The notes below the pieces were generated by a model, which saw nothing but the letters and a program-made list of their open reading frames with translations, was not told where the DNA came from and did no database searches. Shown piece by piece: positions 11,499 through 33,255 of a stretch of DNA of 48,440 bases. A program made the position numbers and the translations under genes. Within the stretch, counting starts at the first letter, position 1; every line of letters begins with the position of its first letter. Where the stretch lies: NCBI RefSeq assembly GCF_000336675.1, contig NZ_AOMB01000036.1:1-48440 (forward strand). The letters run 5' to 3'. The stretch comes from Halococcus hamelinensis 100A6 (GTDB lineage Archaea > Halobacteriota > Halobacteria > Halobacteriales > Halococcaceae).

Positions 11499-12950
11499 AT
11501 GCCTGAGCAACCAAATGTGCTGGTCGTACTGTGCGACCAGATGCGGCGTCAAGCGATGAGTTGTGCGGGAGATCCGAACGTTTCTACACCGAACCTTGAC
11601 CGCCTTGCAGGAAACGGTGTGAGGTTCACGAACGCTAACTCAACGACCCCGATATGCGTACCAGCACGGTTCTCACTGTTTACGGGCAAACATGCACATA
11701 CTCGCAACGCACATCACCACTGGCGAATGTCACCCGCGGAAGAGACGTTCGCCCATAGGTTCGCCGAGGATGGATACGAGACCGGCTACATCGGTAAGTG
11801 GCATCTCGCGGACGTCGGAAGGGATAGACCGGTACCCGAACACTCTCAGGGAGGATTCGAATACTGGCGGGGATTCGAACTCAAGAATGAGCCGTTTAAT
11901 ACGGCCTACTACGAAGATGGCGATACGAAACCACACTCCCTTGACGGTTATCAGACCGACGGGTTGTTCGACCTCGGTGTTGAATTTCTTGACTCCCATG
12001 GATCGGAAAACGAACCGTTCTGTCTCACGATCTCGGTAGAACCTCCACATCCCCCGTTCACTGCTCCTGAGGAATTTCTTGAAGAGTGGGAAGATAAGCC
12101 ACTGGAACTCAGACCTAACGTACCTTATGGGGACTCTGAACCTCCACTCAATATCATTGGCGAACCGTATTCACGATGGGGCGACTTGGAAGCATCTTCG
12201 GCCGAACTGTATGAACGATACGACTACCACGGAGAGACGTTTACCGAGGAGATGCGCAAATACTACGCTATGGTCGAAAATCTCGACGAGAACGTCGGTC
12301 GATTAATTGAAGAACTCGAACAACGCGGGATTCGCGACGAAACGGCGCTCGTGTTCACCTCCGACCATGGCGAGCTGCTCGGCTCGCACGGATTCATGGC
12401 AAAGCAGCATCCATATGAAGAGTCAGTCGGTGTTCCCCTGATCGTCTCGTACCCGAACGGCGACATAGACACGGGTCGAACGATCGATGCCCCCACATGT
12501 CTAGAGGACCTCCTACCGACACTTCTCGGTTTGGGAAGCGTCGACTGTGAGGAGGAGTACCCCGGTGTAGACCTAACACGTATCATGCAAGATGAGGAGG
12601 AAACACTCGACCGCGATGGTGTTCTGCTGGAATTCGTTCGCGAGGTCAGGCCGATGATGCCATATCACGACGAAACTTGGCGTGGGTTCCGGAGTGAGAG
12701 GTACAAGTACACAGTCAAAGGATACGACAACATGAATCCCGGAGCATTTACTGAGTGGGGGGAACCCTGGCAACTGTACGACCTAGAGGAAGATCCATAC
12801 GAACAAAACAATTTGATCGACGATCCGGACTCTCGGGACATCGCTCAGGAGATGCACGGCCGACTACGAAATGCATTCATCGAGTACGAGGACGACTATG
12901 CGCTTGATGCAGCATTTGGGTATGATGAGCTAAATACACCGGATATTTAG
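11499..12950 (+). CDS. Sulfatase 1 (alkaline phosphatase superfamily, Cys-type)
   Basis: 483 residues. The S1 sulfatase signature is CVPAR at residues 53-57; Cys53 is the residue that must be converted to formylglycine. Metal ligands are seen at Asp13 (LCDQM) and in the TSDHGE motif (Asp289, His290). A late KWHL pattern (GYIGKWHLADVG) is also typical. It hydrolyses sulfate esters with Ca2+ in the active site. There is no signal peptide, so it should be cytoplasmic. It opens a run of sulfatase genes and faces the APC permease gene tail to tail. The motif has Ala at the fourth position instead of the common Ser, still within CxPxR. Substrate unknown; carbohydrate sulfate is suggested by the GH3 and transporter neighbours. 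Confidence 0.9.
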   Translation: MPEQPNVLVVLCDQMRRQAMSCAGDPNVSTPNLDRLAGNGVRFTNANSTTPICVPARFSLFTGKHAHTRNAHHHWRMSPAEETFAHRFAEDGYETGYIGKWHLADVGRDRPVPEHSQGGFEYWRGFELKNEPFNTAYYEDGDTKPHSLDGYQTDGLFDLGVEFLDSHGSENEPFCLTISVEPPHPPFTAPEEFLEEWEDKPLELRPNVPYGDSEPPLNIIGEPYSRWGDLEASSAELYERYDYHGETFTEEMRKYYAMVENLDENVGRLIEELEQRGIRDETALVFTSDHGELLGSHGFMAKQHPYEESVGVPLIVSYPNGDIDTGRTIDAPTCLEDLLPTLLGLGSVDCEEEYPGVDLTRIMQDEEETLDRDGVLLEFVREVRPMMPYHDETWRGFRSERYKYTVKGYDNMNPGAFTEWGEPWQLYDLEEDPYEQNNLIDDPDSRDIAQEMHGRLRNAFIEYEDDYALDAAFGYDELNTPDI

Positions 12951-13107
12951 CCACAAGCAAGGCTAAACACAGCGGCACGACGCGACACCATCGCGAGATT
13001 TTTCCTGAATTGCTGCATAATATCCATCCGTAAACTCTCTTCAAGAATTTCAGGAAGGAAGAGGAGGGTGCGGCTCTAAGGCATCGACACTGGCAGGGCG
13101 ATCCCGC

Positions 13108-14469
13108 TCAATCACTACCTGAGACGGATCCTGCTTCCCCGACGCTCTCCGCATCGACATCCACACTCCCCCGCAGTTTCTGTACAGCGTAGATAACAAC
13201 TCCGGACGAGACGAAGAGCAGGTACCACTGCAACCCAGTCGGACTCTCTATTGCTATGGAGACGACTAATGACCCCAGTACTACTGCCGCTATTCGGGAA
13301 AACCACCGGACAGTGGTCCGCGACAAGTACTTCGACTCGGATAGCGGGCCTGTTTCGAAGACCTCGGGTCGAGTAGAAGGTAATCGCGACGCTGTCACGC
13401 ACGTAACTGTGACGAGAGTGAGGTTCCCCATAGCGGAACCCTGTATCATATCGTTCAAAGGGATGTTGAGGAAAACACCAACGATGGAGGCGGCTCCAAC
13501 AATGAGGAGGACATACTTCGGTTCGCCGTGTTTGTTCTCCTCACCCAGCCACTTTGGAAGGATACCGTCGTTGGCTGTGGCCTTCATGTATCTGGTGACC
13601 ATCGAAAGAATAGCGATGTTTGATGTTACTCCCGCAACCATCGCCGCAACTGCGGATACTACGATCAGCTCCGGGCTGAGGTATTCGGAGGTAACGACAC
13701 GGAGCGTTCGGTTAGCTAATTGGTCGGAAGGGACGATTCCGACGCTTACGAGTATGACGCCGATTCCGATCAACGCAACAGCACCTGTATTCAAGAACAG
13801 AATTTTGCCGAATGCCTTCCCAGGGTCTTCGATGTCACCACCGAAGTCAATGATATATAGACCCGAGATGAACGTCGTGAGCATGACGCCCATGACTGAG
13901 AGTGTTGGAACCGGGCCCGATGGGAAGACGGGAGTCAGTTGGTTGGGATCGATGTTCAGCACGCCCAATGCGAGGATCGTGCCGATCGCTATAAGGAGAA
14001 ATGCAGACAAAACTATTTCGAGCCTTCCGACAGCTTGGATCCCGAACCAGACAACACCGACTGTTATTAGCAGTAACAAAACGGTGAATATCTGCGTTGA
14101 AACTGCTGGGAAGAAGGTGTTCAGATACGAAGCACCTGCGATAACTAGCACCTGAAGAATCACAAACCCGGACATCAATATCGATGGCCAGAGCACACCC
14201 CACCCCGCAAAGTGACTCACCTCCTCATGTTCAGGTAATAGTAATCTCGAATTGTAGAAATAATGACCTGGAGACGCTGACCAGAATTTCGTGAGAGCGA
14301 GGTATCCAGGTGCGGCCAATGCGACAACCCCCAGACCCAACAGTGTTACAACGGCGGTCCCCGGTCCCCCAATCGACGCAGCGGCAACTGGTTTTGACCA
14401 GAGAGCGCCACCAATGTTCAAACCAAGCATTACAGCTAGACCGCCGATCCAACCCAGCTTATTATCCAT
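13108..14469 (-). CDS. APC-superfamily permease (amino acid/amine type)
   Basis: 453 residues with about 12 hydrophobic segments. The first helix contains GLNIGGALWSKP, the unwound glycine-rich substrate site typical of APC transporters, and the order of helices fits the amino-acid permease fold. I start at the ATG 14467-14469 (MDNKLGWIGG). A strong TATA-like attatttatag lies about 35 bases upstream, and the 21 extra codons of the open frame would include this promoter. The gene sits alone on the minus strand between sulfatases 1 and 2. Sulfatase loci sometimes carry their own importer, so it could take up an amine or amino-acid-like sulfate compound; that is inference. The family assignment is less certain than that of its neighbours. 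Confidence 0.72.
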   Translation of the reverse strand: MDNKLGWIGGLAVMLGLNIGGALWSKPVAAASIGGPGTAVVTLLGLGVVALAAPGYLALTKFWSASPGHYFYNSRLLLPEHEEVSHFAGWGVLWPSILMSGFVILQVLVIAGASYLNTFFPAVSTQIFTVLLLLITVGVVWFGIQAVGRLEIVLSAFLLIAIGTILALGVLNIDPNQLTPVFPSGPVPTLSVMGVMLTTFISGLYIIDFGGDIEDPGKAFGKILFLNTGAVALIGIGVILVSVGIVPSDQLANRTLRVVTSEYLSPELIVVSAVAAMVAGVTSNIAILSMVTRYMKATANDGILPKWLGEENKHGEPKYVLLIVGAASIVGVFLNIPLNDMIQGSAMGNLTLVTVTCVTASRLPSTRPEVFETGPLSESKYLSRTTVRWFSRIAAVVLGSLVVSIAIESPTGLQWYLLFVSSGVVIYAVQKLRGSVDVDAESVGEAGSVSGSD

Positions 14470-14760
14470 TATCGCAATGGAGAACGATGAGAGACCACTA
14501 TAAATAATTTTGGATGCCGAGGCGCAGGTCACTTCACCAAAGCGTCTAACTCGGGTTCTCGCCTGATTTCATGGTACCTCCCACCATAGTTCGTAATACG
14601 ATCCGCAAAAAACATCGACCTATCCTACAATCACAATGTTCCGCTAAGAACCAGACGAAGCTACGATGACTGGCTGTGAAGGGCGACTGACGGTATTCGG
14701 AGACCCAGAAAGCCTTGGCGGACGAAGGAATTAACCGATACCGAGATAGATCTCTTAATC

Positions 14761-16416
14761 ATGAAGTCGAATCAACCAACAAACATTCTCTGGATATCAC
14801 TCGAAGACACGAGTCCACGGTTTGGGTGCTACGGCGACGAGCTGGCGGAGACGCCAACCATTGACGAACTTGCGAGCGGCGGCCGGCGCTATACCAATGC
14901 ATGTAGCACAGCGGGTGTCTGCGCTCCGTCCCGTGCCGCGGTGATCACTGGCCGATATCAAACAACGATAGGCGCTCATCACATGCGGACGAAACATACG
15001 AACGAGGACACGCCAAGAATCCCGACGCCGTACTCCGCCGTTCCACCCCACTTCGTCACTGCGTTCCCCGAGTATCTCCGCGCGGCGGGTTACTACTGTA
15101 CGAACAACGAGAAGACCGACTACCAGTTCGATAATCAGGGCGACGATCCCCACGACTTCCAACCGCCGGCGTCGATTTGGGACGAATGCAACGAGGACGC
15201 TCACTGGCGGAATCGCCCGGATGACGACCAACCGTTCTTCGCCGTGTTTAATCCCACACGAACGCATGAGAGCGGGATGTGGGAGGACGCACTTCTGAGT
15301 GTTGGCGGCGAGCCGGAGACGGATCCTGACCGAGTAACAGTCCCACCATACCTCCCGGATTCCGACGGAGTTAGGGAGTCGATTGCCCGACAGTACGACA
15401 ACATCACGCGGTCGGATGAGGAGATCGGTTGCCTTCTTTCCCAACTGGAGGAGGACGGTCTCGCGGAGAATACAGCCGTGTTTGTTTGGAGCGACCATGG
15501 GGAAGGACTCCCGCGCGCGAAGCGAAGTCTTTACGAATCAGGGGTGAACGTCCCGCTGATCGTTCGCTGGCCAGGTGAGGTTGAGGGCGGGGAGCAGAGC
15601 GACCGCCTCGTTAGCCTCGTTGACTTGGGTCCGACCGTGCTGTCGATCGCTGGGATCGACATACCCCAGTGGATGCATGGTCGTCCGTTCTTGGGGCAGG
15701 CAGAGCGTGAGTCACGCAACTACGTGATGGCCGCGCGCGACCGTATCGACGAGAGCTACGACATGGTCCGCTCAATACGGAACCATCGCTACAAGTATAT
15801 CAGGAACTACGACCAGTCGAACCCACCGTTAGTATGGGTGCCGTTCCGCGCCCGAGGGGATGCGATGCGAGACCTGCTCCGTCTCCACGCGGAAGGCAAG
15901 CTGCCGGAGCGTCAGGCTCGTCTCCTCTCCGGCGGACGACCCGGAGAGGAGCTCTACGATCTCCACAACGACCCGCATGAAATCGAGAATTTGGCTGATG
16001 ACACCGACCACCTCGATGTGCTCGCGGGACTCCGTACCGCGATGGACGAGTGGCGCAAGCGATGCGGCGACGAGGGTATGGTCGACGAATCACGGATGGT
16101 CGAACGGATGTGGCCGGATGGCGAGCAGCCGACAACGGCTACTCCAACGTTCGTGCCGAACGCACCGGAGAACCCCATGACGGAAGCGACGCCGGACGGA
16201 GATACGTTCACCGCGCCGGCAACGCTGACGCTTCACTGCGACACGCAGGGAGCTTCGATAGTCCATACTACTGACGGCGGATCGGAATCGCGATGGAAAC
16301 TCTACAACGACGTTATCTCACTTCCAACCGGTGAGACGACAGTGCAGGCGAAAGCGATTCGATACGGCTACCGTGAGAGCAGTGTTCGCAGTGCGACATT
16401 CACTGTCACCGACTGA
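14761..16416 (+). CDS. Sulfatase 2, N-sulfoglucosamine sulfohydrolase-like, with C-terminal beta-sandwich domain
   Basis: 551 residues. The signature is CAPSR at 54-58 (Cys54 to formylglycine), with an early metal Asp in SLEDTSP and a WSDHGEG metal motif. The beginning (NILWISLED, GCYGDELAETPT) and TGRYQTTIGAHHMRT recall the heparan N-sulfatase (SGSH-like) branch of S1 sulfatases. The last roughly 75 residues (from about 470; TLTLHCDTQGASIVHTTDGG...AKAIRYGYRESSV) look like the small chitobiase/hexosaminidase C-terminal-type beta domain, an extra sugar-binding or structural module. There is no signal peptide. It is first in a tandem of three sulfatases on the same strand, with 84 bases to the next. 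SGSH-like specificity is a suggestion from overall look, not proof. Confidence 0.88.
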   Translation: MKSNQPTNILWISLEDTSPRFGCYGDELAETPTIDELASGGRRYTNACSTAGVCAPSRAAVITGRYQTTIGAHHMRTKHTNEDTPRIPTPYSAVPPHFVTAFPEYLRAAGYYCTNNEKTDYQFDNQGDDPHDFQPPASIWDECNEDAHWRNRPDDDQPFFAVFNPTRTHESGMWEDALLSVGGEPETDPDRVTVPPYLPDSDGVRESIARQYDNITRSDEEIGCLLSQLEEDGLAENTAVFVWSDHGEGLPRAKRSLYESGVNVPLIVRWPGEVEGGEQSDRLVSLVDLGPTVLSIAGIDIPQWMHGRPFLGQAERESRNYVMAARDRIDESYDMVRSIRNHRYKYIRNYDQSNPPLVWVPFRARGDAMRDLLRLHAEGKLPERQARLLSGGRPGEELYDLHNDPHEIENLADDTDHLDVLAGLRTAMDEWRKRCGDEGMVDESRMVERMWPDGEQPTTATPTFVPNAPENPMTEATPDGDTFTAPATLTLHCDTQGASIVHTTDGGSESRWKLYNDVISLPTGETTVQAKAIRYGYRESSVRSATFTVTD

Positions 16417-16500
16417 CAACTCATCGACCGGTGCCGTTCTCTTTTCTCGCGCCGAGTATCAGATACATTTATGTCCTTTCGGAAACGCCTTCGGTCTTGT

Positions 16501-18021
16501 ATGCGAATTCTGTACATAGACATCGATTCGCTTCGTCCGGATCACTTGGGTTGTTACGGATACGAGCGTGACACCTCGCCCAACATCGACCGGATCGCAG
16601 CGAATGCCCGACGATTCACGAACTACTACGTCTCCGATGCACCATGCCTTCCCTCTCGTACAGCCTACTTTACAGGTCGATTCGGGATCCACACGGGTGT
16701 TGTCGGTCACGCCAATATCAACGCAGATATTCGCCATCGCGGTGCCGCACGAGGACACTCGAACCGTGGTACGTATCGAACGCTTCCAACTGCATTACGC
16801 CAAGAAGGACACCGGACGGCGTTCATCAGTCCGTTTCCACAGCGCCACGGGGCTTGGCACGTTATCGATGGCTTCGAAGAATGGGTCGATACAGGTGAGT
16901 TCGGTGTCGAACGCGCTGACGTCGTCTACCCCCACGTGGAGAAATGGCTGGAAGCGCACGCTTCGGAAGAGGACTGGTACCTCCATGTCAACTTCTGGGA
17001 CCCGCACACCCCCTACGACACGCCGGAAGAATACGGGAACCCGTTCGTCGACGAGCCTGCCCCGAGATGGCTTACTGAGGATTTGATCGAAGAGCAGTAT
17101 GAGAGCTACGGCCCTCACAGTGCTCACGACCTGCACCATGGTTACTTGACCGGCGACGGTCCCGACGACCTCGAACGGACACCGAACGAGATCGCGAATC
17201 GGGAGGATTTTCGTCGCTGGGTCGATGGATACGATGTCGGTATCCGCTATCTCGACGGCTACATTGGCAAGATGGTTGATCTCCTCCGGGCACAGGGTGT
17301 CTACGAGAACACCGTAATCGTGATATCAGCAGACCATGGGGAGAACCAAGGCGAGCTCAACGTGTACGGCGACCATCAGACTGCCGACGATATCACATGT
17401 CGGGTTCCCCTGCTCGTCAGGGGACCTGGGATCGAGTCCGGCGTCGACAACAATCTCTACTACCATCTCGACTTCTCGGCGACACTTGTGGACTTGATTG
17501 GGGGTGATGTTCCGAGCAGTTGGGATGGCCGTTCGTTCCTTCCATCGCTCACCGACGGCGAGACGGTGGGTCGGAGCTTCCTCGTCACTAGTCAAGGTGC
17601 ATGGGCGTGCCAGCGCGGCGTCCGGTGGAATGACTGGCTCCTGCTCCGAACATATCATGACGGCTGGCGAGACTTCGAATCCGTCGAACTCTACAACCTC
17701 ACCACGGACCCACACGAAGTAGAGAACGTTGCTACAGACAATCCGGAAGTGGTTGACCATGGAATGGCGCTGTTAAACCGGTGGCATGGACAACGGAGGA
17801 TCGACGCAGCAATCGGATCCGACGGTGGGAACCCGGACGCTCCGCGTGGACTTATTGACCCGCTTTTCGAGGTGATTCGTAGTGGCGGGTCGTTCTATCT
17901 TCAGGGAAACATGGAGGCGTACACGGATCGTCTACGCGAAACCGGTCGCGAGGCACATGCCGAGAAAATCGAGACCTACGACGGAATCACCCACCAAGTC
18001 CGAAGCGAACAGCCCCGCTAG
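16501..18021 (+). CDS. Sulfatase 3 (Cys-type)
   Basis: 506 residues from the ATG at 16501. The start fits because the AT-rich catttatg near 16464-16471 then acts as a TATA element about 32 bases upstream; an ATG inside that element (16471) would add only ten basic residues. The signature is CLPSR at 49-53. The metal motifs are Asp7/Asp9 in IDIDSLRPDHLGC and SADHGEN. Histidine-rich stretches (YHLDFSATLVDL) match the S1 fold. There is no signal peptide, so it is cytoplasmic. It lies between sulfatases 2 and 4 in the same direction with short spacers, suggesting joint expression although each seems to have its own promoter. Substrate unknown. Confidence 0.9.
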   Translation: MRILYIDIDSLRPDHLGCYGYERDTSPNIDRIAANARRFTNYYVSDAPCLPSRTAYFTGRFGIHTGVVGHANINADIRHRGAARGHSNRGTYRTLPTALRQEGHRTAFISPFPQRHGAWHVIDGFEEWVDTGEFGVERADVVYPHVEKWLEAHASEEDWYLHVNFWDPHTPYDTPEEYGNPFVDEPAPRWLTEDLIEEQYESYGPHSAHDLHHGYLTGDGPDDLERTPNEIANREDFRRWVDGYDVGIRYLDGYIGKMVDLLRAQGVYENTVIVISADHGENQGELNVYGDHQTADDITCRVPLLVRGPGIESGVDNNLYYHLDFSATLVDLIGGDVPSSWDGRSFLPSLTDGETVGRSFLVTSQGAWACQRGVRWNDWLLLRTYHDGWRDFESVELYNLTTDPHEVENVATDNPEVVDHGMALLNRWHGQRRIDAAIGSDGGNPDAPRGLIDPLFEVIRSGGSFYLQGNMEAYTDRLRETGREAHAEKIETYDGITHQVRSEQPR

Positions 18022-18107
18022 CTATATCCATCACGACCGACACTTAACGAACATCTGATGGGTAGATCACCATCGTTATTACGTGACCTACATATACGAC
18101 ACTATCG

Positions 18108-19412
18108 ATGGCAGGAAATAGACCAAACGTTTTCCTCATCCTTACTGACCAGCATCAGGCCCAAGCTCTCGGCGCGGTGGACGGTTCGTTCCACACACCC
18201 GCACTCGACGGCCTTGCAGCCGACGGTGCCCGTTTTGAGAACGCCTACTGTACCCAGCCACAATGCTCACCGTCGCGTTCCTCGATCGTCACTGGCCAGT
18301 TTCCACATCAAACGGGTGTCCAAGCTCTCTCTAACTGGGGGCCGCATGAACTTGATACAGCATCGAACAGCGTCGGCCGTACACTCCAAGACGCAGGCTA
18401 CGAAACACTCTGGTCCGGTCGCTGGGATCTCGGTGTTGAGAATGCCACTGAGCTCGGGTGGAAGTACACCCGGAACCTTGACATTACCGGCACTGATGGG
18501 ACATCGAGCCTCGAATGCGACCGTACAACAGCGACCGAAGTGTCGCGGTATCTACGAGAGTACGACGGTGACACGCCCTTTTTCGCAACGGCGTCCTTCA
18601 ACCTCCCCCACCCTCCATACTTCGAGGATGAGTGTTTCCAGCAGTACTACGACCGGGAGGAGGTTTCACTCCCGACGAACTTCAACGACGATCTCTCCAC
18701 GAAACCTGCGTTCCACCGAGAACGCGCGAAAGCCGAAGAATGTGATCTCTCAGAGGATGAGTACCGCGAAGTCGCCTATCGGTACCGAACAATGGTCTCG
18801 CGTGTCGACGCTTACATCGGGGTGGTATTGGACACACTTCGCAGCGAAGGACTCTACGACGACACGGTAATCGTGTTCACTGCCGACCATGGCGACATGC
18901 AGGCCGCGCATGGTCTCAACAAAAAGGGTGTCCTCGCGTACGAGGAAATCCTCCGTGTACCACTCGTTGTTCATCACCCTCAACTCGACATCGAACGGAA
19001 CGTGATCCCGGACTTCGTCTCTACCGCCGCCGTCCCAGGAACGATCGTTGAGGCAGCGGGCGAATCAGTTTCACAAGCGTTTACCGGTGGAAGTCTGCTG
19101 CCAACGATGGAGCGCTCTTCGCCGCCCGACGATGATCGGGTTTTCTTCGAGCACAACGTCGCCTACTGGGGGCATCACCCCTACCGGGGGGTCCGTACCC
19201 CAGATTGGAAGCTCGTAGAGTATCCGAAAGATGGCGAGGGTGAGCTCTATGATATGCAAACGGATGCTGACGAACTAACGAATCGATACAACGACCCCGA
19301 CTACATAACGGTCAGGGAGGCGCTCGAAAATACCATCGAGAGGTGGTGGAATGCGACTGACGGCGACATGGATGATTGGATTACTGAGCCGGACCTATCG
19401 TTCAGTCCCTGA
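18108..19412 (+). CDS. Sulfatase 4 (Cys-type)
   Basis: 434 residues, the shortest of the five. Signature CSPSR at 53-57; metal ligands Asp14 in LILTDQHQ and the TADHGDM motif. The overall pattern (PNVFLILTDQHQAQALG, AYCTQPQCSPSRSSIVTGQ) is that of arylsulfatase/choline-sulfatase-like S1 enzymes. There is no signal peptide. It ends the tandem of three sulfatases and faces the first GH3 gene tail to tail with a 140-base gap. A TATA-like catatac about 25 bases upstream supports the ATG at 18108. The substrate is likely a sulfated sugar given the neighbours, but this is inferred from context only. Confidence 0.9.
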   Translation: MAGNRPNVFLILTDQHQAQALGAVDGSFHTPALDGLAADGARFENAYCTQPQCSPSRSSIVTGQFPHQTGVQALSNWGPHELDTASNSVGRTLQDAGYETLWSGRWDLGVENATELGWKYTRNLDITGTDGTSSLECDRTTATEVSRYLREYDGDTPFFATASFNLPHPPYFEDECFQQYYDREEVSLPTNFNDDLSTKPAFHRERAKAEECDLSEDEYREVAYRYRTMVSRVDAYIGVVLDTLRSEGLYDDTVIVFTADHGDMQAAHGLNKKGVLAYEEILRVPLVVHHPQLDIERNVIPDFVSTAAVPGTIVEAAGESVSQAFTGGSLLPTMERSSPPDDDRVFFEHNVAYWGHHPYRGVRTPDWKLVEYPKDGEGELYDMQTDADELTNRYNDPDYITVREALENTIERWWNATDGDMDDWITEPDLSFSP

Positions 19413-19552
19413 CTCGGGCGTACGGCCTGCGATGTTCCGTGACACAACGCGTCCATTCATGGCCATCGGGACTCGTCTTATCGTCTCCCCATAGCTTAGC
19501 CCTCTCCACCCCCGACGACCGATACCGAGCAAAGAAGTGGAAGCAAAAACGC

Positions 19553-24180: not shown

Positions 24181-24202
24181 GTCGAGACATGGGGCAATGT
24201 CC

Positions 24203-24210
24203 ATATTAAA
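24203..24210 (-). promoter_or_regulatory. TATA element of GH3 gene B
   Basis: The minus-strand sequence tttaatat is centred about 27 bases before the ATG at 24180. This is the spacing expected between a haloarchaeal TATA box and a leaderless start, and it decides the start codon of GH3 gene B. Confidence 0.5.
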
Positions 24211-24337: not shown

Positions 24338-24700
24338 ATGAGTGACGAGACGACAGAACACACGGAAAGCGGAGCACTGGACCACGGCGATTCAAGTGGA
24401 GACTACGCGAAACACTGGACCAACAAAGCAGATAACAGGGAGGATCTCCCGGCTGAGAATGTCGATGTGAAATCGGATTGGGTTGGGTTGACGGTCTACC
24501 TTCCGGAACCACTCCGGGACGAATTGGAGTTGGTCTTCCGCGAGCATAGCTTAGAATGCAAGCGCTCAACGGACATAGACCTCAAGAAACTTCGTCATTT
24601 CTATCCGAGCGTAGTTGCTCTCGGAATAGAACGCCTCGAGAGTATGAATACAGAGGAGCTCACCCCTCTCCTCACGTACCTTTCAGAGGAGTACGAATGA
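24338..24700 (+). CDS. Small conserved-looking haloarchaeal protein, resembles partition-associated plasmid proteins
   Basis: 120 residues. The first 45 residues are acidic, polar and probably disordered. The rest is a compact alpha-helical domain containing VGLTVYLPEPLRDELELVF and later HFYPSVVALGIERL. From memory this layout (charged N-terminus, a YLPE strand, charged helices, an HFYPxVV helix) resembles small haloarchaeal proteins encoded next to ParA ATPases on megaplasmids. No ParA gene is present here, so it would be an orphan. It lies divergent to GH3 gene B. Function unknown; DNA binding is a guess supported only by the nearby palindromes at 24731 and 24900. Confidence 0.65.
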   Translation: MSDETTEHTESGALDHGDSSGDYAKHWTNKADNREDLPAENVDVKSDWVGLTVYLPEPLRDELELVFREHSLECKRSTDIDLKKLRHFYPSVVALGIERLESMNTEELTPLLTYLSEEYE

Positions 24701-25261: not shown

Positions 25262-25270
25262 TTTTAAATA
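25262..25270 (+). promoter_or_regulatory. TATA element of the ABC importer operon
   Basis: ttttaaata, a strong archaeal TATA sequence, is centred 35 bases before the ATG of the binding-protein gene. This predicts a transcript start near 25293 with a leader of about 8 bases. Confidence 0.55.
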
Positions 25271-25300
25271 TACCATCGACTACTGTGATGGTGGACCTCA

Positions 25301-27088
25301 ATGGTAGATAATAGCAATGGCCGGGCATCCCGGAGGAAGTGGCTGAGAGCCCTGGGAGCAGGGTCAGCAGCACTGCTAGCCGGTTGCTCAGGTGATACAC
25401 CCGAACCCGGTGGACAGGGGGGCGGTTCCACAGGGAACGGACAGGGAGAAGGCTCCACAGAAAACTCGGTTGACCAAACGTTTTACAATGCGACATGGGC
25501 CATCCCGACACAAGCACAGTACAATCAGCAGAACCCGACTAACCAGACGGAGTTCCCTAACTACGTGTTGTTTGGGCGACTCGCTCAGTACAATCAGACG
25601 AGCGCGGAATGGGTCCCCCATCTAGCAGAAGAGTGGAACATATCCGGGACATCGGTCACGCTCAACCTCAACGATTCGTTCGTCTGGCACGACGGCGACC
25701 CGGTTACGGCCAAAGACGTTGCAACGAAACTGCGTGTAGAATACGCAATGGAAACAACGTTAGCCAACTTTCTCAGCGGGGTTGAAGTGCCAGACGAGAC
25801 GACGATTGAGATCGAACTACAAGGCGAAACGAACCGGAATCTCCTCTATCAGAACCTGCTATCGCTCATGATTGACACCCCGACAAGCGTTTGGGGGGAG
25901 TACGTCTCTGACGTCCAGTTCGACGATTCGGACTATTCGAGCGTACAAGAGGAGATAGTACAGTTCAGTTGGCAAGATCCCATCGGGTGGGGGCCGTTCC
26001 AGCTCGACGACCAGACCGGCCAGCAGATCCAACTGACGAAATTTGACGACCATCCACAGGCAGACCAAATCAATTTCTCGACGATGGCCTTCCGGTACGT
26101 TGAGAACAAACAGCAGAAAATGCAGGGCTACCTCTCCGAACGCATCAGCGGTGGAGGGATGATCCCAACGAAGTCAGTCTATGACCAAATGCCGAGTGCG
26201 TTCCAGAACTGGAACTTCAATCGCGGCGTCGGGTTCGCTCTACACTTCAACCAGAATCGCAAGGTATTCCAGGACGTGCGAGTTCGGAAGGCACTCTCGC
26301 ACGTACTTGACCGAGGACCAATGGTCGAGAACACGAGCATTGTCGGTCCCAAAACGCTCGAGTTCGACACGGGGTTTCACGGCAACAAGAAGTTTCAGCG
26401 TCGGTATATCGGCGACACCCTGAACGAATTTACGCTCTACAACGACACGAAGCGGGCCACAGCGCTGCTAAAGGAGGCCGGATTCACCAAGAACGGCGAG
26501 AAATGGACGAAACCCAACGGTGACCCGTTCCAGCTGACACTCAAATCCGCATCCGGCTTCAGTGCATGGCGCGTCGGCACGAACGAGGCGACACGACAGT
26601 TGAACGAATTTGGGATCGATGCTGAGTTCACACCGGTCCAAAACAGTACGTACCTCTCGAACACGTTATCGAACGGCGACTTTGACATCGGTGCCTCTTT
26701 CGTTGGCCAACAGATCCTACACCCGCTCACGGACCTAGAAACCTCGTTCTATGGATACCCTAGCTTCGCTCCCGATATAGGAACTCCAGACGAGTTCTCG
26801 GTCCCGATGCCGGTCGCCAACCCGTCCGGGTCCACGAAGACAGTGAATGTGCGGGATCTGATCTCCCGGATCACGTCCACCTCTGGCCAGAAGAGCCAGG
26901 ACCTGATAAAGCGACTCTCGTGGGTCTACAATCAGACCATGCCGACCTACGTCGTGTTTACGAGCTACGGGTACAGCTTCCTCAATACGGACAACTGGAC
27001 TGTTCCCCCGGAGGACGCGGCAACAAACGGTGTGAGTTATCCAGTCGCGCTCATGATGCATAAAGGACAGGTTCGGGCAAAGCAATGA
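25301..27088 (+). CDS. ABC transporter solute-binding lipoprotein, family 5 (peptide/oligosaccharide type)
   Basis: 595 residues. A Tat signal with twin Arg (RR at 11-12, ASRRKWLRALGAG) ends in a lipobox LLAGC with Cys29, so the folded protein is exported by Tat and anchored by lipid. A Gly/Pro/Ser-rich linker (30-55) follows. The family-5 binding-protein fold is indicated by LAEEWNISG, NDSFVWHDGDPVTAKDV and the KALSHVLDRG region. In archaea and Thermotogales, this family binds peptides or beta-linked oligosaccharides. The surrounding sulfatases and GH3 enzymes make a sulfated oligosaccharide the preferred inference. It is first of an importer operon; the permease starts 79 bases downstream. 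Confidence 0.9.
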   Translation: MVDNSNGRASRRKWLRALGAGSAALLAGCSGDTPEPGGQGGGSTGNGQGEGSTENSVDQTFYNATWAIPTQAQYNQQNPTNQTEFPNYVLFGRLAQYNQTSAEWVPHLAEEWNISGTSVTLNLNDSFVWHDGDPVTAKDVATKLRVEYAMETTLANFLSGVEVPDETTIEIELQGETNRNLLYQNLLSLMIDTPTSVWGEYVSDVQFDDSDYSSVQEEIVQFSWQDPIGWGPFQLDDQTGQQIQLTKFDDHPQADQINFSTMAFRYVENKQQKMQGYLSERISGGGMIPTKSVYDQMPSAFQNWNFNRGVGFALHFNQNRKVFQDVRVRKALSHVLDRGPMVENTSIVGPKTLEFDTGFHGNKKFQRRYIGDTLNEFTLYNDTKRATALLKEAGFTKNGEKWTKPNGDPFQLTLKSASGFSAWRVGTNEATRQLNEFGIDAEFTPVQNSTYLSNTLSNGDFDIGASFVGQQILHPLTDLETSFYGYPSFAPDIGTPDEFSVPMPVANPSGSTKTVNVRDLISRITSTSGQKSQDLIKRLSWVYNQTMPTYVVFTSYGYSFLNTDNWTVPPEDAATNGVSYPVALMMHKGQVRAKQ

Positions 27089-27167
27089 CTCCGTTCCTAG
27101 ATACACCAGACATGCTGGTGATTCGGACACAGATAAGCATATGGAGAAGACATAGCGAACGAAAATC

Positions 27168-29282
27168 ATGGTTTCACGTTCAGTAAAGAAACACGCGGGG
27201 CGACTTGCCCAAGCGTTGTTCAGTATTTGGTTCGTACTTACGTTCACGTTTGGTCTCGTTCGGCTGCTACCTGGGGGGCCGATGGCGTACCTCCAAGCGC
27301 AACTTGTAGAACAGAACATAGATACTTCGGCCTTACAAGCCCAAGTCAAGGCATATACGAACATCGCTCCCGATGAGCCGCTCACGATACAGTACATCCA
27401 GTATGTATCATCAGCCCTCCAAGGGGATTTCGGTCGTTCTATCTGGTACGACCAGTCGGTAGGTTCGATCGTTGCAGGCGCACTACCCTGGAGTCTGCTG
27501 CTGGTTGGCGTCTCGATAGCCCTGATATATTTCATCGGCATCGGCGGCGGCGCACTCATGGCCTACAGTGAAGGAAGTCGATTCGATCAGGTTACATCGA
27601 CGGCTGCGATCGTCTTGAATTCGATCCCCTCATACGTGGCTGGAGTTGTCTTTCTATACTTTCTCGGATATCGCTGGCGTCTCTTCCCAATTGGCGGTCG
27701 GATGAACGACGCCACTCAAGTCGGACTGAACTGGCCGTTCGTCGCCGGCGTGATCGAACACCTTGCGCTACCCGTGGCCGCGTTCGTCCTCACCGCATTC
27801 GGGTTCCGGGCGCTCACGATGCGCAGCAACAGCATCAGCGTTTTGGGCGAGGAATTCGTTCGCGTCGCACAGCTTCGGGGCCTTCCCGGACGACATATCG
27901 CGCTCCAGTACGTCGGACGGAACGCAGTCCTACCGCTTTACACCGGTCTCCTGATCTCGATCGGGCGGCTACTCGGAGCGACCGTGATTATCGAGCAGAT
28001 CTTCCGCTATCGTGGGATCGGCTACTATATGTTGGAGGCGATCAATGCCCGAGACTACCCGCTCATGATGGGGTGTTTCATCGTGATCACCGTCACGGTC
28101 GTTCTCGGGGTGTACATCGCCGACCTCACTTACCGGCTGATCGATCCACGAGCTGACACCCGAAGCGAGACCGCAAACATCACCATGGGTAGCCTCTGGG
28201 ATCGGCTCACCATTTGGATCAACCAGCGGCTCTCGGGCCAGTCAGGCGGCGCTGACACTACACATTCGGACAGACAAGCGAAGTTGGCGAAGACGGAGTT
28301 CGGCACGGTCGCCGACTCCACCGACCCGACCACCACGTCCAGAGGCGGTAGCTTCTATCAGTTCGTGGTCGTGCCGCTCAAGATCATCTGGGACGACTGG
28401 CGCACTCGGGTCGGGCTCGCTATTGTCCTCCTATACGTGGCCATTGGACTGTTCGGTCCGTTCGTTATCGCCCCGCCAAATTCCGGACAGGCCCCGCGCG
28501 CGCTGCAGGCGTTCCAAAACTTCTCTCACCCCCTCGGTACCGACCAAGCCGGGCGGGACCTCCTCTCGTTGCTCGTTCACGCCACGAGACCGATGCTCGA
28601 GATGATCCTCGTCGGTGCCGTCTTCGCGACGACCGTCGCGTCGCTCATCGGGATCGTCGCCGGTTACGCGGGCGGGCTGATCGACCAGTTACTAATGACA
28701 CTCTCGGACGTTACCATCGCGATCCCAGGCATCCCGCTCGCGATCGTGCTCGCCTTCATCTTCCAGCCGACCGATCCCGCCGTCATCGGGCTTCTCCTCA
28801 CCGTCAACGCTTGGGGGGGCATCGCTCGCCAGATCCGCTCGGAGACGATTACGATCCGCAAGAACCACTACGTGGAAGCCTCCCAAGTGCTGGGGATTTC
28901 ATCACCGCGGATCCTATACAAGGAGGTCTTACCGAACGTTCTCTCGTTCATCATGATCAAGTTCGTCGCCAGCGCCCGGCGCGTCATCTTCGCGTCCGTG
29001 GGGCTATACTTCATCGGCGCACTTCCCTACACGCTCAACCACTGGGGGGTGATCATGCAGATCGCCTACGAGGGTGGGGCTCTCCTCACGGCTGATCTGG
29101 CCTACTGGCTGTTCATCCCCATGGCAACGATCGTCGTTCTGAACTACGGGTTCATCCTGTTTGCACAGGGGACCGACCGACTGCTGAACCCACGGATCAG
29201 AGCGAAACACAAACGGAAAAACCGCCAGCCTGAGAGCCAATCCCGGAGCGAAAGCGCTTCTCAGACAGCTACTCGTAACTAA
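27168..29282 (+). CDS. Fused DppB-DppC ABC permease (peptide/oligosaccharide importer)
   Basis: 704 residues, about twice a normal permease. Residues 1-330 are a complete DppB-type subunit (FGLVRLLPGGP near the start; coupling loop EEFVRVAQLRGLPGRH). Residues 330-400 are a polar linker. Residues 400-690 are a complete DppC-type subunit (SHPLGTDQAGRDLLSLLVHA; coupling loop NHYVEASQVLGISSPRILYK). No stop or start signal separates the halves, so one polypeptide should form the whole transmembrane pore. The downstream ATPases follow after 6 bases. In most organisms DppB and DppC are separate genes. The coding frame is clean through the linker, so this is not a sequencing-scale artefact that can be seen here, although a lost stop codon cannot be excluded. 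Confidence 0.9.
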   Translation: MVSRSVKKHAGRLAQALFSIWFVLTFTFGLVRLLPGGPMAYLQAQLVEQNIDTSALQAQVKAYTNIAPDEPLTIQYIQYVSSALQGDFGRSIWYDQSVGSIVAGALPWSLLLVGVSIALIYFIGIGGGALMAYSEGSRFDQVTSTAAIVLNSIPSYVAGVVFLYFLGYRWRLFPIGGRMNDATQVGLNWPFVAGVIEHLALPVAAFVLTAFGFRALTMRSNSISVLGEEFVRVAQLRGLPGRHIALQYVGRNAVLPLYTGLLISIGRLLGATVIIEQIFRYRGIGYYMLEAINARDYPLMMGCFIVITVTVVLGVYIADLTYRLIDPRADTRSETANITMGSLWDRLTIWINQRLSGQSGGADTTHSDRQAKLAKTEFGTVADSTDPTTTSRGGSFYQFVVVPLKIIWDDWRTRVGLAIVLLYVAIGLFGPFVIAPPNSGQAPRALQAFQNFSHPLGTDQAGRDLLSLLVHATRPMLEMILVGAVFATTVASLIGIVAGYAGGLIDQLLMTLSDVTIAIPGIPLAIVLAFIFQPTDPAVIGLLLTVNAWGGIARQIRSETITIRKNHYVEASQVLGISSPRILYKEVLPNVLSFIMIKFVASARRVIFASVGLYFIGALPYTLNHWGVIMQIAYEGGALLTADLAYWLFIPMATIVVLNYGFILFAQGTDRLLNPRIRAKHKRKNRQPESQSRSESASQTATRN

Positions 29283-29288
29283 CGACCA

Positions 29289-30350
29289 ATGAACCTCGAA
29301 AAGACTAACCGACAATCGAATCGGAACGACCGGCGGAAGATCATCAGCGCGCGTGACGTCGCGGTCACGTTCGAAATGGATCGCGGTACTTCACGCGTGC
29401 TGAACGACGTCAATATGGACATCTACGACGGCGAGATCGTCGGGATCGTCGGCGAAAGCGGGAGCGGGAAGTCGATGTTCGCCGACGCGCTGTTGAACGC
29501 GGTCGTCGACCCTGGCGTGGCTTCCGGCGAAATTCGCTATACCCCTGAGGAGGGTGAATCCCTCGATGTGCTCGGTCTCGAAGGGAAGGCACTTCGAGAG
29601 TTTCGCTGGAACGACGTCTCGATGGTATTTCAGGGCGCTCTGAGCGCGTTCAACCCGACGATACGAGTTGGCGCTCACTTCAAAGAGACGCTGAGCGCCC
29701 ACGGTGTCGAGAAGCGCGAGGGGATGGAGTGGGCGCGCCAGCTACTCGCCGACCTCTACCTCGACCCGAACCGGGTGCTTGAGTCCTATCCTCACGAACT
29801 GAGTGGCGGGATGAAGCAACGGGCGCTGATCGCGTTGAGTCTCCTGCTCGAACCAGATATGCTGGTGATGGACGAGCCAACTGCTGCGCTCGACCTGCTG
29901 ATGCAGCGATCGATCATCAGACTACTGCGGGAGGTCAGGGACAAGTACAACCTGACGATGGTGTTCATTACGCACGATCTACCTCTCGTTGCCCGGCTTG
30001 CGGACCGTCTCGCGGTCATGTACGCCTTTGAGTTCGTCGAGACCGGGCCGACCGAGAAGATCCTTACCGAACCGTCACATCCGTACACGCGGGAGCTATT
30101 GAATGCGACGCCGGACATCAGCGCGCCGATCGATCAGATGAAACCAGTAGAAGGGGCAGCCCCCGACCCGGTTACCCCCCCTGCAGGCTGCTCGTACCAC
30201 CCGCGCTGTCCGCTCGCCGACGAACGATGCGAAGCCGAAGCGCCCCCGTTCCAGTCGGTATCCCAGAACCACGAAGCAGCCTGTTTCCACTGGGAGCAGG
30301 CGGTCGAAGAGATTCCGATGGCCAGCCAAGGAGGGAACAGCGATGAGTGA
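29289..30350 (+). CDS. ABC transporter ATPase, DppD type
   Basis: 353 residues. Walker A GESGSGKS, Q-loop in VFQGALSAFNP, signature LSGGMKQR, Walker B LVMDEPTAALD and H-loop ITHDLPL are all intact. The C-terminal oligopeptide-transporter extension has the Cys-rich pattern CSYHPRCPLADERC. It powers import through the fused DppBC permease by ATP hydrolysis on the cytoplasmic side. It starts 6 bases after the permease stop and overlaps the next ATPase gene by 8 bases, so the three genes are certainly co-transcribed and translationally coupled. Confidence 0.93.
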   Translation: MNLEKTNRQSNRNDRRKIISARDVAVTFEMDRGTSRVLNDVNMDIYDGEIVGIVGESGSGKSMFADALLNAVVDPGVASGEIRYTPEEGESLDVLGLEGKALREFRWNDVSMVFQGALSAFNPTIRVGAHFKETLSAHGVEKREGMEWARQLLADLYLDPNRVLESYPHELSGGMKQRALIALSLLLEPDMLVMDEPTAALDLLMQRSIIRLLREVRDKYNLTMVFITHDLPLVARLADRLAVMYAFEFVETGPTEKILTEPSHPYTRELLNATPDISAPIDQMKPVEGAAPDPVTPPAGCSYHPRCPLADERCEAEAPPFQSVSQNHEAACFHWEQAVEEIPMASQGGNSDE

Positions 30351-31440
30351 CACTGCCGATCGGCCAGTTGTGACACTCAACGACGTAAGCGTCGAGTTCG
30401 CGAAGAACTCGGGACTGTTCGACCTATTCTCCGAACGGGAAGTCGTAAAGGCCGTCGACGGGGTCTCGATTGAGATCCCAGAAAACCAGGTCGTAGTACT
30501 GGTTGGCGAAAGCGGCTGTGGGAAGACCACCCTCGGGAAGACGACGATCGGTTTACAGGAACCGACTGCTGGGAGCGTCGAGTATCGGGGCCACGATATC
30601 TGGGCCGCAAAGAAGGGCAAGGGTGAGATGCCGTACCGGGAGATCCGGCGTTCCCTGCAGATAATCCACCAGGACCCGGGAAGCTCCCTTAACCCGAACC
30701 GGACGGTCATGGCGAGCCTCATGGAGCCGCTTCGTCGGTGGTACCCCGAACTCGACACCCAAGACAAACGTGCCCGGATCCTCTCGATGATCGAACGCGT
30801 TGGTATGTCCCCTGCACAGGATTACGCCGACCGATATCCCCACCAGCTGAGCGGTGGGGAAAAACAACGGGTCGCACTCGTTCGTGCGCTGATCATGAAT
30901 CCGGAGCTGATCTTGGCTGACGAGGCAATCAGCGCCCTCGACGTTTCGCTTCGGGTCGAGATGATGAACCTGATGATCGAGCTTCAGGACCTCATCGGAA
31001 CGTCGTATCTCATGATCTCTCATGACCTCTCCAACGCCCGCTATATGGCGAAGAAGACCGGCGGCTACATCGGGATCATGTATTTAGGAGAGATAGTTGA
31101 GTTCGGCCCGGCGTCGGAGGTCATCGAAGATCCGAGTCATCCCTACACGAAGGCACTCAAGTGGGCGACACCCGAACTCAGTACGTTCAGCGAGAGCGGT
31201 GAGCGAATGCCGATTCGGAGTATCGACATCCCTGATGCGGTCAATCCCCCATCCGGCTGTCGGTTCCACACGCGGTGTCCGAAGGCTCGTGAGGTGTGTA
31301 CCCAGGAGCACCCCGAACTCGCCGTCGATCCGGCGGATGACCTGTATCAAGCGGCTTGTTTCCGTGATTACGAGGACCACCCTTACTGGGAGAGTAGCGA
31401 TATCACCGATGGAGGCGAGGAGCCTATGTCCAAGATATGA
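30343..31440 (+). CDS. ABC transporter ATPase, DppF type
   Basis: 365 residues. Walker A GESGCGKTT, signature QLSGGEKQR, Walker B LILADEAISALD and H-loop ISHDLSN. It carries the DppF-style N-terminus, with an aligned aromatic insert (NSGLFDLFSERE), and a Cys-containing C-terminal tail (CRFHTRCPKAREVC). It pairs with the DppD-type ATPase to drive the fused permease. The start ATG lies inside the end of the previous gene (overlap of 8 bases) with a good ribosome-binding site, aaggaggg at 30328-30335. It is the last gene of the importer operon; sulfatase 5 follows after 159 bases on the same strand. Confidence 0.93.
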   Translation: MSDTADRPVVTLNDVSVEFAKNSGLFDLFSEREVVKAVDGVSIEIPENQVVVLVGESGCGKTTLGKTTIGLQEPTAGSVEYRGHDIWAAKKGKGEMPYREIRRSLQIIHQDPGSSLNPNRTVMASLMEPLRRWYPELDTQDKRARILSMIERVGMSPAQDYADRYPHQLSGGEKQRVALVRALIMNPELILADEAISALDVSLRVEMMNLMIELQDLIGTSYLMISHDLSNARYMAKKTGGYIGIMYLGEIVEFGPASEVIEDPSHPYTKALKWATPELSTFSESGERMPIRSIDIPDAVNPPSGCRFHTRCPKAREVCTQEHPELAVDPADDLYQAACFRDYEDHPYWESSDITDGGEEPMSKI

Positions 31441-31599
31441 GACTCTGAGGGGTATCCGATCCGTCGTCGCCGATTCGAATGTGGCTCGGCCGCATACGGG
31501 TTTCGAACGCCATCGACTGCCCAAAAACACGACACAACGACCGATTCCGACGCATCAACCTATGACCCAAGTACACAAAACGGCAACGACCATACGACG

Positions 31600-33255
31600 A
31601 TGACTGATACACCGAACGTCCTATTCCTGATGACCGATGAGCATAGCTATCGCGGGCTCGGACATCTCAACGACGACGACGACGGCCGCGGCGAGCCGGT
31701 GACTACGCCGACTTTGGATGAGATGGCCGCCTCAAGTGCGGTATTTGACCAAGCATACTGTCAAATGCCGCTTTGTACTCCGTCACGACTATCGATGCTT
31801 ACTGGGCGTGAGGTACCAGGTGCGGGTGCTTGGGATAATTGGAGTACGTTGCTGCCCGACAGACGAACGATGCCCGAGGCATTCAGCGAGGCCGGTTACG
31901 CAACATCGCTCGTCGGCAAGATGCACTTCGGTGGGAACCGTCAGTTCTGTGGCTTTGAGGACCGTCCCTACGGGGATCTGACGGGAGAGGTGGGCCACCA
32001 ACCGGATCCGATCAGACCGATCGAAGAGAATCGTGGGCTTGGCAGGCCACCATTTAGAACGCGCACTGCCGATGCCGGTGTTACTGAGATTCCCGAGAGC
32101 CAGCTTCAGGAACGTACTGTTCTCACCGAGAGCCTCTCTTGGGTTCGGGAACAGGCGCACGCAAATTCAGACCAACCGTGGTTCCTCTGTGCATCGTTTT
32201 CGCGGCCTCATTTCCCACTGACGGTTCCGAAGCGGTTCCTAGATCGATACTGGCCCGAAGGCGTTACGGAACCAAAGGTAGGACGCGAGGGCGACACGAT
32301 GAACCACCCAGTCGTCGAACATCTCGTAGAGTACTTACGAATAGACGACATCCCTGAGGAGGAGTCGCAAAAAGCTCGTGCGGCGTATCTCGCCTGCATC
32401 GACTTTGTCGACGAGGTGATCGGGGACTTCCTCTCACTCATGGACCAAGGTGGTTTCCTCGAAGATACGATCGTCGTATATGCGTCCGACCATGGTGAAC
32501 TGGCCGGGGAGCACGGGCTTTGGTGGAAAAGTACTTGGCACGAAGCTTCGGCGCGAGTTCCTCTCATGATACAGACACCCGACCACCGATCCGGAGAACG
32601 GGAGGCTGCTCGGTTGGAGACGCCAGTCGGACTGGTGGATCTCTTCCCGACACTGTGTGGACTCTGCGACATCGACACATTGGGAGAGATAGATGGTGTC
32701 GATTTATCCGAAGCCGTTCGCGAGGGAACTGAACCGGACCACGGACCCGTCGTTTGCGATATGCTCAACGAGCGGTGGGGTAAGGGCACCCAGTATCGAA
32801 TGGTCCGGGATGGGCACTACAAGTATATCAGGTTCAGGGGGGACTTTCAGGACCTCTTGTTCGATCTCAAGACGGATCCACTGGAGCAGGTAAACGTAGC
32901 GCTCAAGCCAAGCGGCGACGACGCGGTGGCACTCGGCCAACTCCGAACCTACGTTGAGGAGACGCTTGACTTCGAGAAAGTCGACAAGAAACGCCACACG
33001 GACCAGCGACGGGCCGCAGAGAACCACGTCCTCACTGCCGACGGCCACACTGATATCGACACCTCCGAGTTCCGATCCGATCTCATGAAATTAAATATTC
33101 CGGACACGACCGATGGCAACCTGTATCACCTCCCGGATGGTCGGATCGTAGATGGGGGACTGACGATCTACAAACCCAAGGAGATAATCGAGAACCCAGC
33201 GGATGCCTACGACGATTGGCCCGGTAACGACATCCAGCCGGATGATGATATCTGA
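31600..33255 (+). CDS. Sulfatase 5 (choline-sulfatase-like, Cys-type)
   Basis: 551 residues. Signature CTPSR at 59-63; early metal Asp13 in FLMTDEHS; second metal motif ASDHGELAGEHGLWWK, which recalls choline/aryl sulfatases of the BetC type. The C-terminal 80 residues are an extra polar tail. There is no signal peptide, so it is cytoplasmic. It lies directly downstream of the importer operon, same strand, and may be read through from it. The gene start ATG gives the usual TPNVLFLMTDEH beginning. The substrate might be choline-O-sulfate or an imported sulfated sugar; the importer context favours the latter, but the family look does not decide. Confidence 0.9.
   Translation: MTDTPNVLFLMTDEHSYRGLGHLNDDDDGRGEPVTTPTLDEMAASSAVFDQAYCQMPLCTPSRLSMLTGREVPGAGAWDNWSTLLPDRRTMPEAFSEAGYATSLVGKMHFGGNRQFCGFEDRPYGDLTGEVGHQPDPIRPIEENRGLGRPPFRTRTADAGVTEIPESQLQERTVLTESLSWVREQAHANSDQPWFLCASFSRPHFPLTVPKRFLDRYWPEGVTEPKVGREGDTMNHPVVEHLVEYLRIDDIPEEESQKARAAYLACIDFVDEVIGDFLSLMDQGGFLEDTIVVYASDHGELAGEHGLWWKSTWHEASARVPLMIQTPDHRSGEREAARLETPVGLVDLFPTLCGLCDIDTLGEIDGVDLSEAVREGTEPDHGPVVCDMLNERWGKGTQYRMVRDGHYKYIRFRGDFQDLLFDLKTDPLEQVNVALKPSGDDAVALGQLRTYVEETLDFEKVDKKRHTDQRRAAENHVLTADGHTDIDTSEFRSDLMKLNIPDTTDGNLYHLPDGRIVDGGLTIYKPKEIIENPADAYDDWPGNDIQPDDDI

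Follow-up and report, generated by a model that had tools for sequence, protein, structure and literature searches.

A probable catabolic locus for sulfated oligosaccharides in Halococcus hamelinensis, with predicted import ahead of cytoplasmic desulfation

The stretch of DNA analysed here, called the window, comprises 48,440 nucleotides of Halococcus hamelinensis 100A6 (positions 1 to 48,440 of contig NZ_AOMB01000036.1, assembly GCF_000336675.1, a draft that is 96.4% complete). Positions 11499-33255 of the window contain, by Pfam, five PF00884 sulfatases (S1 to S5), two GH3 glycosidases (GH3a and GH3b) and a complete family-5 ABC importer. From this gene set we infer that the locus probably serves the catabolism of a multiply sulfated oligosaccharide, which would be imported, desulfated in the cytoplasm and then cleaved by the GH3 enzymes; the class of substrate, the direction of transport, the order of steps and the origin of the locus are likewise readings of the evidence, whereas the gene content, the catalytic motifs, the presence of a sulfatase-maturing enzyme, the heuristic lack of signals, the conservation of the enzyme block and the composition are observed.

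In the proposed scheme, the family-5 importer, consisting of a Tat-lipoprotein binding protein, a one-chain permease and two ATPases, would bring in short sulfated oligosaccharides. A single formylglycine-generating enzyme (FGE) would mature the five sulfatases, which in the cytoplasm may remove sulfates position by position, mostly from the non-reducing end, with S2 most likely taking a 2-sulfate. Each terminal sugar unmasked in this manner would be cut off by GH3a or GH3b acting as exo-beta-glycosidases. The sulfate released in the cytoplasm would have to exit or be used, and the APC-superfamily permease encoded between S1 and S2 is a candidate for this task; it may act on a co-substrate or on a product, which could be this sulfate or some derivative of a sugar. 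The enzyme block itself may in part or in whole be an acquired one, placed beside a resident-looking importer.

Gene content of the locus

The features of the locus and its flanks are as follows (coordinates in the window, strand, description):

10558-11498, no strand: left flank, AT-rich by composition, 941 bp, 45% GC
10709-11026, +: open reading frame of 105 residues without a Pfam match, inside the left AT-rich gap
11499-12950, +: S1, formylglycine sulfatase (PF00884), core CVPAR, no signal peptide
13108-14469 (end approximate; reading frame open to 14532), -: APC-superfamily permease, 12 hydrophobic segments
14761-16416, +: S2, formylglycine sulfatase, core CAPSR, SulfAtlas S1_8 type, C-terminal CHB_HEX_C_1 domain
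16501-18021 (reading frame open from 16471), +: S3, formylglycine sulfatase, core CLPSR
18108-19412, +: S4, formylglycine sulfatase, core CSPSR
19553-21670, -: GH3a, beta-glycosidase (beta-glucosidase-like), SDW nucleophile motif, no signal peptide
21943-24204 (reading frame called to 24363), -: GH3b, beta-glycosidase, SDW nucleophile motif, no signal peptide
24338-24700, +: acidic protein of 120 residues, conserved, divergent from GH3b
25301-27088, +: family-5 solute-binding protein (SBP_bac_5), Tat lipoprotein
27168-29282, +: family-5 permease of 704 residues, two BPD_transp_1 domains fused
29289-30350, +: importer ATPase 1 (ABC_tran and oligo_HPY)
30343-31440, +: importer ATPase 2 (ABC_tran and oligo_HPY)
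31600-33255, +: S5, formylglycine sulfatase, core CTPSR, 3' of the importer
33256-34411, no strand: right flank, AT-rich by composition, no genes, 1156 bp, 46% GC

The five sulfatases score 135-180 bits against a PF00884 gathering cut-off of 25, and all of them carry the formylglycine core C-x-P-S/A-R. Judged from its relatives, S3 probably starts at 16501. The start of GH3b is placed near 24204 or 24180 on the same grounds, and the GTG at 24363 is judged to be an over-call because a start there would overlap the conserved gene at 24338-24700.

A first-pass annotation of this DNA had listed the sulfatases, the GH3 enzymes and a complete family-5 importer within 22 kb, between AT-rich and gene-poor flanks. 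The Pfam matches agree with this, and so does the composition of the flanks, the left one holding a single short reading frame and the right one being free of genes. The APC permease, the 120-residue acidic protein and the fusion of the two permease domains are additions to that list.

Cellular location of the enzymes

Signal peptides were called with a heuristic of our own and not with SignalP. By this heuristic none of the seven hydrolases of the locus has a signal peptide, while the eight binding proteins that served as positive controls (that of the window and seven from related loci) all scored as Tat lipoproteins; the Tat lipobox signal RRKWLRALGAGSAALLAGC is present in the binding protein of the window. 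The earlier claim that the hydrolases lack signals and that the binding protein has a Tat lipoprotein signal is thus borne out. The same division is found in seven haloarchaeal plasmid loci, where a Tat leader is seen in 0 of 24 intact sulfatases and in 7/7 of the binding proteins tested. Among the depolymerases of related loci, a BNR-4 protein, a xylanase, a cellulase and one heparinase were scored as Tat substrates.

Two other sulfatases bear Tat-type leaders, one encoded on contig C32 of the same genome and one in a second haloarchaeal genome, G380, where the leader lies just under the cut-off and was recognised by eye. Export of sulfatases is therefore possible in these organisms, and the absence of signals in the locus is not an artefact of calling. 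Pfam gave no SusC/SusD pair in the locus, as would be expected for a polysaccharide utilization locus of the Bacteroidetes type, nor does any of its sulfatases have a signal peptide by the heuristic.

Conservation in haloarchaea

Conservation was followed in 392 genomes of the order, which sample it without exhausting it. A close ortholog of S1 occurs in G380 alone (81% identity), S2 has matches in 11 other genomes (best 50-76%) and S5 has orthologs in six (49-54%), while homologs of GH3a are found in 117 of the 392. G380 retains S1, the APC permease, S2, GH3a, GH3b and the 120-residue protein at 65-81% identity in a rearranged block, in which the permease (78%) lies beside S1 and an FGE adjoins S2. 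The 120-residue protein has a clear ortholog adjoining GH3b there, and more distantly related hypothetical proteins are encoded on 67 haloarchaeal plasmid records. For the BNR_4 protein beside the G380 block, considered as an ulvan lyase, no solved relative was found at E up to 1.

A related island of 31 kb on a plasmid of Halomontanus rarus (L121, NZ_CP119798.1, 17828-49378) encodes 13 sulfatases together with an FGE. It includes orthologs of S4 (54%) and S5 (53%), and the heuristic finds no signal peptide in any of the 13.

Composition and clustering

The locus has a GC content of 55.5%, about 4 points lower than the 59.7 and 60.1% to either side. GC at third codon positions is 0.51-0.57 for S1, the APC permease and the GH3 genes, 0.63-0.68 for S2-S5 and 0.68-0.74 for the importer, the last resembling most of the flanks. 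This pattern fits a piecewise assembly of the locus. If the 15 PF00884 genes were placed at random on the 3.42-Mb genome, five of them would lie this close together with p ~2.5e-5. A search for repeats at the island boundaries gave just short or coding similarities.

Downstream of the right flank, at 34412-39329, two sets of a P450 and a TetR-like gene (34412-36356, +, and 37415-39329, -) are opposed around an SDR gene and resemble a duplicated pair.

The importer and the APC permease

The importer shows the hallmarks of the Opp/Dpp type: an SBP_bac_5 binding protein, two permease domains and two ABC ATPases with oligo_HPY. The best solved relatives of the binding protein include mannoside- and chitin-oligosaccharide-binding proteins of Thermotoga, at a weak 44-37 bits. 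In the order sample the fused permease has 22 homologs that are full-length and uninterrupted (40-46%); a scan of the genome contigs with it as query gave none. The class of the importer finds indirect support in the neighbours of related importers. A relative with a fused permease in Haladaptatus sp. QDMS2 stands next to two sulfatases and two proteins of the heparinase II/III family, and a family-5 importer of Halosolutus has sulfatases, an FGE and an arabinofuranosidase-like protein as its neighbours.

To the same effect, contig C35 of the H. hamelinensis genome (L207, L208, ~71-93 kb) encodes a second family-5 importer, a paralog with permeases 50 and 41% identical, beside GH67, GH10, GH4, GH3 and UxaC, a glucuronoxylan-type set whose enzymes have no signal peptide by inspection. 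It resembles the locus of the window in joining a family-5 importer to signal-less glycosidases, and its GH3 is 34% identical to GH3b; unlike in the window, no sulfatase was found there by homology search.

Several observations weigh against the proposed scheme, the weakest part of which is the link between importer and enzymes. The importer of the window was not found with the same enzymes elsewhere: the G380 block has neither importer nor S5, and no listed plasmid-borne homolog of the binding protein exceeds 31% identity. Given this lack of joint conservation and a third-position GC that differs from that of the enzyme block, the importer could serve another substrate. Two sulfatases have moreover decayed within the otherwise retained G380 block (L089, 16300-17900), where S4 has lost ~115 residues from its N-terminus, the formylglycine core among them, and S3 is reduced to a piece of its C-terminal part. 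No 10-mer is common to three or more upstream regions of the units of the locus, no regulator lies within it, and the absence of signal peptides is a heuristic prediction.

In an unlikely alternative, the enzymes form a cytoplasmic sulfoglycan pathway with which the adjoining family-5 importer has nothing to do, its cargo being peptides or other oligosaccharides; uptake would be left to the APC permease, which would then carry small sulfated sugars, or to an importer elsewhere. The transporter that accompanies the enzymes is the APC permease: it, and not the ABC importer, is kept with S1, S2 and the GH3 genes in G380, and a 40% homolog lies on a Halocatena plasmid in a locus with sulfatases, GH78 and BNR-4. 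The difference in composition between importer and enzyme block points the same way. S5, however, lies 160 bp 3' of the importer on the same strand, and haloarchaeal family-5 importers repeatedly adjoin sulfatases or glycosidases. APC carriers, besides, normally transport small solutes, whereas GH3 enzymes act on glycosides.

The first-pass annotation had treated importer and enzymes as a unit. This tie is unsupported or overstated, as the G380 block is without importer and S5 and as two Bacillota pair the same sulfatases with an importer of the SBP_bac_1 type. It had also made co-occurrence of the genes in related genomes a test of its reading; on this test the enzymes do recur together, and the importer does not. 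Import by the family-5 system followed by cytoplasmic desulfation nevertheless remains the preferred reading of the locus.

Two further transporters with a possible role in sulfate handling were seen in other loci: an inorganic phosphate transporter of the PiT type in a sulfatase locus (L108, 19982-21166) and, not far from a family-5 importer, a permease of the SLC13 type (L125, 23821-25722).

Bacterial relatives and origin of the sulfatase set

The nearest relatives of S2 in Poribacteria, Latescibacteria and Bacillota are signal-less, while those in Bacteroidota, Planctomycetota and Pseudomonadota bear signals; an apparent exception, L143, probably reflects an over-extended reading frame. In the tree of S2 the signal-less sequences group together (96/97) and the haloarchaea form one group within them (88/90). 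The root of this tree is a choice of drawing, and the Gracilibacillus sequence (L155) is omitted, its match having merged with a neighbouring sulfatase.

In Cohnella, Gracilibacillus, Paenibacillus, Bacillus and a metagenome-assembled genome of Acidimicrobiia, S2 and S3 are encoded a short distance from each other. S3 is 45-48% identical to Bacillota proteins encoded near S2 orthologs. S4, with a 41% match in Cohnella, is also part of the Cohnella and Gracilibacillus cassettes, both of which are adjoined by an ABC importer of the sugar type (SBP_bac_1). The cassettes of Cohnella fermenti (L161), Gracilibacillus (L155), Paenibacillus puerhi (L165) and Bacillus FJAT-28004 (L164) are like the locus in having signal-less homologs of its sulfatases (36-53%), often adjacent. 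They differ from it in the importer, which is of the SBP_bac_1 type in L161 and L155 as opposed to family 5, and in the APC permease, of which homology searches found none in the cassettes. The papers searched gave no description of these S2-S3(-S4) cassettes.

The resemblance of S2-S3-S4 to a cytoplasmic cassette of Bacillota and other bacteria points to acquisition of at least a part of the enzyme block. It is also possible, if tentative, that a portable set of signal-less exo-sulfatases, common to haloarchaea, Bacillota, Poribacteria and other bacteria, represents a general strategy of cytoplasmic desulfation, joined in each case to the host's own oligosaccharide importer (SBP_bac_1 in Bacillota, family 5 in haloarchaea), the window being one cross-domain assembly of this kind.

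Individual enzymes and the likely substrate

In a sequence comparison with solved structures S2 scores 177-259 bits against the lambda-carrageenan sulfatases S1_8A-C, the next best match being at 101. The S1_8 lambda-carrageenan enzymes and human sulfamidase (SGSH) also occupy the top rows of the structural comparison, in which the model of S2 has Z of 34.6-45.4 to S1_8A-C and 38 to SGSH, itself a member of S1_8 (PMC5066984). Characterised S1_8 enzymes remove 2-sulfates exolytically, with galactose-2-sulfate of lambda-carrageenan (PMC12549532), xylose-2-sulfate of ulvan (PMC9096561) and N-sulfoglucosamine (PMC5066984) among the substrates. S2 is thus placed in S1_8, as a predicted exo-2-sulfohydrolase.

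The closest solved relatives of S1 are carbohydrate sulfatases of S1_11 and S1_30 (159-166 bits). That of S4 is PsS1_NC, an S1_81 enzyme proposed to be of the exo-2S iota-carrageenan type, the activity of which could not be proven (PMC10958521). GH3b has a beta-xylosidase as its best solved match (438 bits), and GH3a is nearest to beta-glucosidases. Our guess at the substrate, made with low confidence, is a 2-sulfated glycan with beta linkages that contains xylose or glucose, either similar to ulvan or a xylan bearing sulfate.

The S2 ortholog of Halocatena marina is adjoined by GH78, a xylanase, BNR proteins and a rhamnose mutarotase. The plasmid that carries it (NZ_CP109982.1; L122, L106) encodes GH78, a Tat BNR-4 protein, a Tat xylanase, sulfatases, an APC permease, genes of a family-5 type importer and the rhamnose mutarotase, and this is likely an ulvan- or rhamnan-type locus.

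Depolymerases were searched genome-wide in four families. BNR_4 and heparinase II/III were both without a match in the own genome, and the other two families gave one signal-less GH10 and one weak GH88-like match. The earlier statement that there is no extracellular depolymerase stands for the locus; genome-wide, these four families were covered. Another glycan region of the genome lies on contig C32 at ~95-130 kb (L118, L119, L070), with GH127, GH2, a GH88-like protein, DUF2264, an SBP_bac_1 importer, a GH51-like enzyme and a Tat lipoprotein sulfatase.

The same layout could instead act on a glycan of the brine's own archaea or cyanobacteria, such as a sulfated S-layer N-glycan or an exopolysaccharide, in place of an algal or animal polysaccharide. 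The S-layer N-glycans of Halobacterium do bear sulfated hexuronic acids (PMC11980604), and the lack of BNR_4 and heparinase II/III lyases in the genome is compatible with such a source. The locus, however, holds no hexuronate-specific enzyme and lends this idea no positive support, and the genes around the Halocatena S2 ortholog point to an ulvan- or xylan-like glycan, which makes a brine glycan very improbable as the substrate.

Identity of the five sulfatases

The nearest solved structures to S5 are choline sulfatases (181 bits), which raises the question of whether the enzymes scavenge sulfate from small esters, choline or aryl sulfates, the glycosidases being there by coincidence. S5 as a choline sulfatase (S1_12) was rejected, as it scores 280.5 bits against an NCBIfam TIGR03417 equivalog cut-off of 433.45; S1-S4 score 109-194. 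Among solved proteins, S1, S2 and S4 come closest to carbohydrate sulfatases, and G380 keeps both GH3 genes along with its sulfatases. Small-ester scavenging is accordingly very unlikely as the role of the locus.

Membership of PF00884 required a test in its own right because two proteins of this type in Halobacterium salinarum, VNG1056C and VNG1057C, have proved to be sulfotransferases with experimental support (PMC11980604). The genome of H. hamelinensis contains 15 PF00884 genes (from 16 matches, since a single open frame accounts for two). The formylglycine core is found in seven: the five of the locus, a Tat lipoprotein on contig C32 and one on contig C37. The remaining eight have a different residue at the core position, mostly Thr. 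A single FGE gene is present (PF03781, 275.6 bits, C32:5829-6683), and its product has the paired active-site cysteines, judged by eye. These observations support S1-S5 as true formylglycine (S1) sulfatases, with activity predicted. That the five would be sulfotransferases for archaeal glycans, like VNG1056C and VNG1057C, is extremely improbable, since all five have the core, which 8/10 of the other PF00884 genes of the genome do not, and their neighbours are GH3 and importer genes, an argument made from core and neighbours.

The eight core-less genes (L068, L069, L072-L077), several of which seem by eye to lie among glycosyltransferase-like genes, perhaps encode sulfotransferases or phosphatases instead of sulfatases. 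A rule for annotation suggests itself, by which only core-bearing PF00884 genes of this haloarchaeal genome are called sulfatases.

Comparison with known systems and significance

Strains of Natronoarchaeum and Haloarcula (H-hyl) grow on hyaluronate and chondroitin sulfate and have loci with a lyase, GH88, GH154, a sulfatase and an ABC importer (2026, PMC13260240). For these glycosaminoglycan (GAG) loci, ABC import of disaccharides and cytoplasmic cleavage were proposed as a genome-based model (PMC13260240). They share with the window an ABC oligosaccharide importer, a sulfatase, exo-acting enzymes and a proposed cytoplasmic processing, and are plasmid-borne genomic islands. They have, however, a secreted PL8 lyase, GH88, GH154 and one sulfatase, whereas the locus of the window has two GH3 enzymes and five sulfatases; PL8, GH88 and GH154 are absent from the Pfam matches of its proteins. 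In Streptobacillus moniliformis, ABC import of sulfated GAG disaccharides was shown experimentally (2017, PMC5430744), while the similar import of sulfated oligosaccharides is inferred for the window; the importer and enzymes of that cluster differ from those described here.

Because these haloarchaeal and Streptobacillus systems are published, the idea of import before desulfation is not new. The import-first cytoplasmic scheme and the glycan context put forward in the first-pass annotation find support in the formylglycine cores, the missing signals and the relatives, but the novelty of the scheme falls.

The cycle of desulfation and exo-cleavage was established for the periplasmic breakdown of lambda-carrageenan in Pseudoalteromonas distincta U2A (PMC12549532). 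There, S1_8 exo-2-sulfatases unmask terminal sugars for exo-glycosidases, as is proposed for the window. That cascade is periplasmic and employs GH150, GH110 and GH2, as opposed to GH3 in the window, and the loci as wholes are unrelated.

The novelty lies in the combination of genes, in how many sulfatases there are, in the lack of a lyase and in the evidence that Bacillota and other bacteria have a signal-less sulfatase cassette in common with the locus. No literature was found in which haloarchaea, sulfatases and sulfated polysaccharides are treated in combination.

Sulfated polysaccharides are a large pool of carbon, the breakdown of which is known mostly from the periplasmic systems of marine bacteria. 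The locus of H. hamelinensis and its relatives suggest another layout, one where oligosaccharides pass into the cell with all their sulfates and are desulfated afterwards. It makes three questions concrete: whether a family-5 importer can transport multiply sulfated sugars at high salt, how sulfate is disposed of inside the cell, and whether archaea gained such a capacity from bacteria in the form of a sulfatase cassette.

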